From Natrarchaeobaculum aegyptiacum (GTDB lineage: Archaea; Halobacteriota; Halobacteria; Halobacteriales; Natrialbaceae): a stretch of DNA of 64,000 bases. This document shows, piece after piece, positions 36,596 to 38,285 of the stretch. The DNA lies in the NCBI RefSeq assembly GCF_002156705.1, contig NZ_CP019893.1:1054001-1118000 (forward strand), in the 5' to 3' direction. Every line of letters begins with the position of its first letter. Position 1 is the stretch's first letter. Below the pieces are notes generated by a model, which saw nothing but the letters and a program-made list of their open reading frames with translations, was not told where the DNA came from and did no database searches. Position numbers and translations under genes: made by a program.

Positions 36596-37171
36596 TTACT
36601 CTTCCAACTGGTCCAGCAACTGGGCGACGTACGGACTGTTCTCCCAGCTCCGATGCGGACTAATCACCGCGAGCAATGTTCGCGCCTCCTCATCGGTCAG
36701 ATAGCCGTTCCGGGCGTACTCACGGAGAAGCCGCGGCGTAGGGACGATTCGCGGTCCGTCCAGGACCGCGTGAACGAGTGGGAAATTCGTCCCCCCGAAT
36801 TCGTCGGTGAGGAAGCCGTCGACCTCGAGCGCGTTCGCGAGGACGATCCCGTCGGTTTCGCCGTCGTCGAGTCCGAACGTCGGTCGAGACTCGGGTGTCG
36901 CTGGTCGGTCGTACGGCTCCTCGACCACGTAGTGAGACCGAGCCGCGAGGACGTTAGTCGCGGCCGCACTGTGAATATCGTCGTACTGTGAGATGTCACG
37001 GAGTTCCGTGAGGACTTCCGGCGGGACGGCAACCTCGCAGGACGTGAGGAGATACTGGAGCGGGTCTGGATTCGTCTCGGTGTCGTACCCCTGATCGGCC
37101 CGCGGGACGGCGAGGCTCACGAGCGCGCTCGTATCGGCGACGACGGTACGCAGTCGCTGCCTGCCACTCAT
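36596..37171 (-). CDS. PIN domain ribonuclease toxin
   Basis: A 191-residue PIN-fold protein. The first acidic site is VVADTSALVSL near residues 10-20, further acidic residues are in DDGETDGIVLANAL near 101-114, and FLTDEFGG near 120-127 gives the last aspartate. Such toxins cut RNA with Mg2+. Its ATG overlaps the stop of the upstream RHH gene (ATGA), the standard antitoxin-toxin arrangement. It is larger than VapC proteins (about 130 aa) owing to inserted and C-terminal segments. Confidence 0.82.
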   Translation of the reverse strand: MSGRQRLRTVVADTSALVSLAVPRADQGYDTETNPDPLQYLLTSCEVAVPPEVLTELRDISQYDDIHSAAATNVLAARSHYVVEEPYDRPATPESRPTFGLDDGETDGIVLANALEVDGFLTDEFGGTNFPLVHAVLDGPRIVPTPRLLREYARNGYLTDEEARTLLAVISPHRSWENSPYVAQLLDQLEE

Positions 37172-37530
37172 TTCTCGGCGGCAGGGTCGATGGATACCGC
37201 GTCCCCGTCGTAAACGTCCACGTCGTCAGGAGCCGCCAGATCGAGCGGCTCGTCCTCGAGATCGGCCTTGAGCAGTCGAAGCCGCTGGGCAGTCTCGGCA
37301 CCGACGAGCTGTTTGACCGTCTCGAACTCGAGCTGGTCGTCGTAGTACTTCGTCGCCACCAGCTTCTGGAACGTCTCGCTGTCGGCGGTCTCATCGATGT
37401 ACTCACGGATCGCTTCGACGAGCAGGTCCGTCCGGTCCGTATCGTAGAGGTCGGCTATCGCATCGAGTCGGTCGACGAGGTACTCCGGTGACTGGAAGTG
37501 AACCCGCCGGGGGTCGTCACTCGCGCTCAT
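37168..37530 (-). CDS. Ribbon-helix-helix antitoxin-like protein
   Basis: A 120-residue protein. RRVHFQSPEYLVDRLDAIAD with DRTDLLVEAIREYIDE forms a ribbon-helix-helix DNA-binding domain at residues 6-47; the remainder (about 50-120) would wrap the toxin. MSASDDPRRVHF is chosen as start, which leaves the repeated TGTGCA motifs immediately upstream as operator. It is co-translated with the PIN toxin. Confidence 0.8.
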   Translation of the reverse strand: MSASDDPRRVHFQSPEYLVDRLDAIADLYDTDRTDLLVEAIREYIDETADSETFQKLVATKYYDDQLEFETVKQLVGAETAQRLRLLKADLEDEPLDLAAPDDVDVYDGDAVSIDPAAEK

Positions 37531-37534
37531 TCTA

Positions 37535-37592
37535 TGTGCACGTTCTGTGCAAAGGCACAAAACGGTTTCGTCGAATGTGCAGTGTTTGCACA
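37535..37592 (-). promoter_or_regulatory. Repeated TGTGCA/TGCACA operator of the toxin-antitoxin pair
   Basis: Five half-sites occur just upstream of the antitoxin start: TGTGCA at 37535 and 37576, TGCACA at 37587, and TGTGC/GCACA arms at 37546 and 37555. Paired half-sites are what RHH dimers bind, so autoregulation is likely. Confidence 0.5.
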
Positions 37593-37608
37593 CAGATCGG
37601 GGTCGGCG

Positions 37609-37851
37609 TCAGTCGTCAGGGCTGGCCTCGAACCCGTCCGAAGCGAACGTCGACGCCTGCTCGAGGACCCCACCCGGAACGGGACAGCCACAGGGGATAG
37701 CCACGTGCTCGAGTGCGTCGGTGGTCGCCACCTCAGAGATGGGCGTGCCACAGTTCGGACACGGCGTGACGTCCGGCCCGTACTCGGGTAGCTCGAACGG
37801 GTCGTCGGCCCAGAAGCAACCGCTTCTGGTCGCGGGCGGGTCGTCGGTCAT
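37609..37851 (-). CDS. Small zinc-finger-like protein
   Basis: An 80-residue acidic protein with CPNCGTPISEV near residues 31-41 and IPCGCPV near 52-58. Four cysteines spaced CxxC and CxC suggest one zinc site of the CPxCG type common among haloarchaeal microproteins. The start MTDDPPATRSGCFW is preferred. No function is assigned; it sits upstream of the toxin-antitoxin pair on the same strand and is separated from it by the operator. Confidence 0.65.
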   Translation of the reverse strand: MTDDPPATRSGCFWADDPFELPEYGPDVTPCPNCGTPISEVATTDALEHVAIPCGCPVPGGVLEQASTFASDGFEASPDD

Positions 37852-37940
37852 CGCCCGGCCCTCCGACCGGCGTTGCGGGTGTGACGCGCTCGAGGCGCTG
37901 TCTGCGTGGTTCGTGGACGATACGCTGATCGTGCGAGACG

Positions 37941-38095
37941 TTTATATCTCGCGAGGAGGAACTGGAACATGGCTTGCATGCGTGCCGCGTGGAAGCCATG
38001 CCTCGGGTGTCCTAGCACCCGGGGCGTTTCAATATACGCCCCTCGCATCCTCGTGGCGGATGGCTTCCATTCTGGCATTGGGCCACTGCAGAGTT
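37941..38095 (+). ncRNA. Candidate structured RNA with alternative folds
   Basis: A good TATA box TTTATAT at 37941-37947 precedes about 130 nt of dense inverted repeats and no credible protein. AAGCCAT at 37993-37999 can pair either with ATGGCTT at 37969-37975 or with ATGGCTT at 38060-38066, so two folds exclude each other. Between them lie hairpins 38004-38021 (CGGGTG/CACCCG) and 38021-38042 (GGGGCGT/ACGCCCC), which share a base. Expected start is near 37968. Strand is tentative because a weaker promoter-like site exists on the other side near 38090. Confidence 0.4.
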
Positions 38096-38285
38096 AAATC
38101 TATTGAACATTTGCTGATGTAAATTGCCGGCTGACCATCGCCAACGCCAGTTCCGGAGTCGGGATCGAGAGCGTCGGAGATGCGCAGCCTGCTCGAGGGG
38201 AGACGACGGACGTCCGGTACAGTTTCGAGCGGGGAACCGCCAGCGTTCGGCCACGGGTTGCTATAGTAACAACTGCAACGATTTA

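Follow-up and report, generated by a model that had tools for sequence, protein, structure and literature searches.

A probable new class of bistable haloarchaeal translational switches, mostly ahead of small zinc/cysteine-rich proteins

Results

A cis-acting leader with two mutually exclusive folds

Positions 37941-38095 of the window (the whole 64 kb of DNA analysed) are, as read from their sequence, the predicted 5' start of a minus-strand mRNA: a cis-acting leader with two mutually exclusive folds. In fold A a shared strand would pair with a strand at the 5' end and leave the start codon free; in fold B it would pair with AAGCCATG instead and hide that codon. With its relatives, this leader probably forms a new class of haloarchaeal translational switches that are bistable and lie mostly ahead of small zinc/cysteine-rich proteins. 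The features in the window are the following.

38093-38107, minus strand: promoter TATA/BRE region (TTCAATAGATTTAAC), with a TATA-like motif at -30 across elements
38060-38069, minus strand: 5' strand of helix P1 (TGGAAGCCAT), first partner of the shared strand, from sequence and pairing statistics
38021-38042, minus strand: hairpin H1, GGGGCGT/ACGCCCC (38042-38036 with 38027-38021), from the alignment of copies and pairing statistics
38005-38020, minus strand: hairpin H2, GGGTG/CACCC, abutting H1; 100% paired, with double changes, in 74 non-redundant elements
37990-38000, minus strand: shared strand (CATGGCTTCCA; core TGGCTTCC), pairing with the P1 5' strand or the start-codon strand, from three-strand co-variation
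37968-37975, minus strand: alternative partner AAGCCATG, holding the ORF1 start codon; B pairs 90% formed
38000-37968, minus strand: hairpin B, the shared strand plus AAGCCATG; apical helix kept under heavy sequence change
37848-37970, minus strand: ORF1, a 40-codon basic leader ORF (MFQFLLARYKRLARSAYR...), from the ORF list and its overlap with ORF2
37934-37951, minus strand: hairpin H4 (CGAGATATAAACGTCTCG) within ORF1, with an A-U to G-C swap on both sides
37609-37851, minus strand: ORF2, an 80-aa acidic small zinc-finger protein (CPxC...PCGC), from its translation and as a constant neighbour

The 5' to 3' order is thus TATA, P1 strand, H1, H2, shared strand, AAGCCATG, ORF1 (with H4) and ORF2. 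The two ATGGCTT copies (37969 and 38060) and the AAGCCAT (37993) reported in an earlier note on this DNA are exactly where it placed them, and the two GC-rich hairpins that it saw between these 7-mers, around 38021, are present as well. The competition that it proposed between the two hairpins does not hold, since H1 and H2 stand side by side in both folds.

The TATA motif lies exactly 30 nt 5' of P1 in 58 of 73 elements, and between -38 and -22 in 64 of them; we infer that transcription starts a few nt before P1. The H1 loop has a conserved GAAA on its 3' side. The H2 loop, of 6-7 nt, is hypervariable between copies (47 distinct loops in 73 elements), and, when compared for kissing interactions with five further stretches of its own RNA, it showed no excess over swapped loops. 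The unpaired junction bases remain conserved while the helices drift, and the conserved GAAA and GAG beside H1 and H2 look like a binding core.

The element reads as RNA on the minus strand

Reading the minus strand as RNA, the paired positions contain 117 G-U wobbles versus 34 A-C mismatches. The aligned copies show the minus strand to be the one read as RNA, and both the excess of wobbles over mismatches and the TATA motif at -30 favour it. The covariance model R3 (see below) scores the element at 77.6 bits on this strand and at 13.0 bits on the plus strand. One result counts against the minus-strand reading: when folded alone, the plus strand is more unusual than the minus strand (z -4.0 versus -2.5).

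The earlier note had favoured an independent small RNA. Such a trans-acting RNA, transcribed from a plus-strand TATA box, would be in keeping with the good folding of the plus strand and with the TATA-like motif found there. However, that motif is the conserved loop of hairpin H4 (37951-37934 on the minus strand), which co-varies, and the wobble counts, the minus-strand TATA at -30 and the strand difference in R3 score all argue for the opposite strand. The element has no plus-strand promoter of its own and does have a downstream gene in cis. Because it has a minus-strand promoter motif, and because the alternative partner holds the start codon of an ORF overlapping the zinc-finger gene, we read it as a cis-regulatory leader and regard the independent small RNA as very improbable.

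When the window was compared with Rfam 15, only a tRNA elsewhere was detected at the gathering cut-off, and at a relaxed threshold the best sub-threshold match reached 20.8 bits versus the 70 required. Twenty diverged loci gave one tRNA and nothing else in Rfam. What stands from the earlier note is a new structured RNA outside the known families, whose two exclusive folds resemble those of a riboswitch; the strand and the genetic role assigned to it are replaced.

Both folds are supported by covariation

Among 74 non-redundant close members, 94.4% of the cells of fold A (P1, H1, H2 and H4) are paired, and double changes are present at 11 pairs in 81 cells, a result matched by 0 of 500 shuffles. 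P1 is 96.6% paired, with double changes at four pairs. The lower stem of fold B is paired in 90% of cells in the close members, versus 30-48% when slid, and its apical helix retains complementarity while the sequence varies freely (mean loop-shuffle z -2.2). The three strands have changed in concert in six close members, from GGAAG/GGCTT/AAGCC to GAAAC/GGTTT/AAACC. Covariation in related genomes, which the earlier note had proposed as a check, is thus found for the pairs of fold A and for both partners of the shared strand, and all three strands keep their pairing in relatives. In 35 of the 74 elements an A-U pair of H4 is swapped for G-C on both sides, altering amino acids; because the pairs swap despite these amino-acid changes, the RNA is selected at H4.

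Forced-fold energies, calculated with standard parameters that do not extend to molar KCl, are nearly balanced: fold A is lower by a mean of 2.3 kcal/mol, and the two states differ by at most 5 kcal/mol in 58 of 74 elements. Among the best models, those of fold A leave the first start-codon base unpaired in 68 of 74 cases, and those of fold B pair it in 64 of 74. As a point against the model, the start-codon strand is TTGCC in 21 of 120 close members, which keep only part of the lower B helix and have a longer apical helix instead. The close loci were gathered with a filter requiring CC before ATG, which in part builds in the conservation of these two letters; no such filter was applied to the diverged set described below. 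We consider the predicted structure, strand and position of the leader well supported.

The leader is widespread in haloarchaea

The genome of Natrarchaeobaculum aegyptiacum contains four copies according to a plain DNA search, which gave matches in 69 of 125 family genomes (65 of the 111 good ones). Model R1, a covariance model built from 28 members, detects the element in 79 of the 125, with one to at least 25 copies per genome. The named hosts are Natrialbaceae, including Natrinema, Natrialba, Halopiger, Halovivax, Halostagnicola and others, and their plasmids also carry it. Viral and phage collections contain no copy of the close form, the SWIM genes of the haloviruses examined are without the leader, and Halobacterium pNRC200 and Haloarcula pHH400 gave no match.

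High copy numbers (up to at least 25 per genome) and copies on plasmids would also be expected of a dispersed, MITE-like mobile DNA repeat lacking an RNA function. Yet the similarity between copies is about 80%, with compensatory pairing; they precede the same ORF pair in a fixed orientation and have a conserved promoter spacing, which makes a mobile repeat very improbable.

Model R2 revealed weak but clear members in other haloarchaeal families. In these diverged elements the shared strand and both partners differ together, giving trios such as GAGAAC/GGGTTCTC/AAAACCCATG, CGAAGG/TGGCCTTCG/AAAGGCCATG, GGAAGA/GGTCTTCC/GAAGACCATG and others. Swapping strands among 32 elements destroys the pairing of both P1 and B (0 of 10,000 permutations each). 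In an alignment of 34 diverged elements, a single set of five columns co-varies with both the P1 and the B side, although a shift of one position in some rows lowers the counts. The P1 pairs were included in the search models; the B pairs were never in any of them.

With model R3 (E 1e-4), the element was found in 129 of 391 genomes and in 54 of 86 genera sampled in the class, and in a sample of the phylum every R3 match fell within the same order. On four plasmids, from Halalkalicoccus jeotgali, Halarchaeum sp. CBA1220, Halomarina sp. PSR21 and Haloarcula marismortui (pNG300), the end of the R3 match coincides exactly with an annotated start codon; two of these matches are modest (E 0.004 and 0.001). 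The H. jeotgali element is identical to L275 from the genome search and the other three are new.

Two further sequence features were observed. Of 51 diverged elements, 18 have a GTATCG box about +31/+32 past the start codon (at most 9 in shuffles), and about a third of the close members have one at +48, in different reading frames; because the frames differ, the box is possibly an RNA signal. The diverged elements also have an inverted repeat between TATA and P1 that spans the likely start site (mean arm 5.1 versus 3.9 shuffled). This repeat, a possible repressor operator, is absent from the Natrialbaceae form.

The genes behind the leader

The earlier note considered no protein plausible. The alternative partner, however, contains the start codon of ORF1, which overlaps the zinc-finger gene in 104 of the 124 unique elements that had sufficient sequence; the overlap is 4 nt long in 80 (as in the window, ATGA) and 8 nt long in 24. 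The two ORFs are fused in one frame in one element (L024), and a recognisable zinc-finger ORF2 is missing in 14 of the 124. Leaders L032, L070, L117, L159 and L166 (MIAYxLPRHKRLARxS...) form a sub-group without a recognisable zinc-finger ORF behind ORF1. ORF1 has no clear excess of synonymous change, and because of this the ORF1 peptide itself may not be important.

The zinc-finger ORF is the sole constant neighbour and is on the same strand in 88 of 88 cases; no shared gene neighbourhood was found beyond it. As to an adjacent bat-type (HTH-10) gene, genes that we take to be bat-like from reading their sequence occur near only 10 of about 120 elements, counting both strands. Neither ORF1 nor ORF2 gave a confident family in Pfam, NCBIfam or PHROGs, nor did ORF2 in PADLOC. 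The predicted structure of the zinc protein is weak (pLDDT 67), with no significant PDB match. The downstream genes encode mostly small zinc/cysteine-rich proteins and hold no metabolic pathway. The first ORFs of the diverged members are often, though not all, of the zinc/cysteine type (SWIM-like proteins, CxxC proteins of 45-48 aa, and others).

Other genes lie near some elements. In some plasmid copies (L190:4499-4759, L192:4459-4722, L188 and L191) a recurring 87-aa acidic gene (M..L.DPRPPLPEWIL.AYD.L...) follows the zinc ORF by 135 nt or lies close to it; it is near seven elements in all. At six loci (L255, L256, L267, L270, L271 and L272) a protein family of about 300 aa (GDGIVTDRHHASADRYEADDPQNQIGG...) overlaps or abuts the leader-controlled first ORF; its full L256 sequence had no NCBIfam or PADLOC match. 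Directly after the zinc-finger gene in the window, two overlapping minus-strand ORFs (141 and 191 aa; 36596-37593) look, by eye, like an antitoxin/PIN-toxin pair.

Discussion

Proposed mechanism

The transcript would begin just before P1 on the minus strand. During synthesis the shared strand would first close P1 around H1 and H2, giving fold A, which would leave AAGCCATG and the start codon open so that translation can start at ORF1 and reach the zinc-finger ORF2 by way of the ATGA overlap. If nothing stabilises fold A, pairing of the shared strand would shift to AAGCCATG (fold B), hiding the start codon and switching off both ORFs. That the leader is transcribed, that folds A and B are the on and off states, and that ORF2 is reached by reinitiation are points that we infer from the arrangement of the sequence. 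The balance would be set by a signal acting on the conserved P1/H1/H2 junction, either by binding it or by disturbing it; the candidates are a metal ion or small molecule, the zinc protein encoded downstream and a physical cue.

Two narrower readings are sub-cases of the bistable leader and differ in the signal. The zinc protein, or the ORF1 peptide, might bind the leader and stop its own synthesis, with a specificity loop for each copy. Cys/zinc-type proteins follow many members and the H2 loop varies between copies, as this would predict; against it, neither the weak model of the zinc protein nor the PDB comparison reveals an RNA-binding fold, and in some diverged members the first ORF does not encode a zinc protein. 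We hold such autoregulation to be a tentative possibility, with the balance against it. Alternatively, the leader could be a strict metabolite- or metal-sensing riboswitch whose binding pocket is made up of the GAAA and GAG conserved around the H1/H2 junction. The conservation of unpaired junction bases beside drifting helices and the zinc/cysteine flavour common to the downstream genes point this way, but those genes show no pathway logic and there are many copies per genome, which is unusual for metabolite riboswitches. A strict riboswitch appears rather unlikely. The same rather low probability is given to its broadest form, a native, class-wide haloarchaeal riboswitch family in which a small ligand or metal ion at the P1/H1/H2 junction would open the start codons of zinc proteins.

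Significance

Natural RNA switches are barely documented in archaea, and the leader described here has base-pair covariation for both competing folds. It is present in over half of the sampled haloarchaeal genera, and would provide a handle on the regulation of many small haloarchaeal zinc-finger proteins. Many haloarchaeal mRNAs do not rely on a Shine-Dalgarno signal, and for this reason hiding the start codon directly would suit these organisms. The leader family appears to be new in that it corresponds to no Rfam family; the literature was covered in part, and an earlier description elsewhere is possible.

Comparison with known systems

Autoregulatory ribosomal-protein leaders resemble the present one in having a structured leader at the start codon and possible feedback by the encoded protein. 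In contrast, the genes downstream here encode accessory small zinc/cysteine proteins, and mimicry of a known RNA target is putative at most.

The brz-brb and bp4-OE2447F pairs of Halobacterium salinarum are co-transcribed small zinc-finger and small basic ORFs linked to bat-type regulators, for which a switching leader is not described (PMC3184054). In being overlapping small basic and small zinc-finger ORFs, ORF1 and ORF2 resemble these pairs. The closest by resemblance is bp4-OE2447F, in which the basic ORF is first and the overlap is 7 bp; the start site of OE2447F lies 134 nt upstream, which leaves almost no leader before bp4 (PMC3184054). The leader pairs described here, by contrast, are without a constant bat-type neighbour.

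The fluoride riboswitch of the hyperthermophile Thermococcus has been called the only riboswitch experimentally shown in archaea (2021 paper, PMC8241225). With translational riboswitches, including the archaeal fluoride (crcB) one, our leader shares the 5' location, two exclusive folds of which one hides the translation start, and a conserved junction. It differs in hiding the AUG itself, in its many copies per genome and in having no Rfam match. In combining a conserved 5' leader with mutually exclusive folds that bear on an expression signal, it has the layout of a riboswitch and, by its predicted folds, works like a translational one; it is not filed as one, ligand binding being putative.

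Finally, translational coupling through an ATGA overlap is known in archaea (PMC6728339). The same 4-nt stop/start overlap is present here, but the first ORF would itself be gated by the bistable leader.
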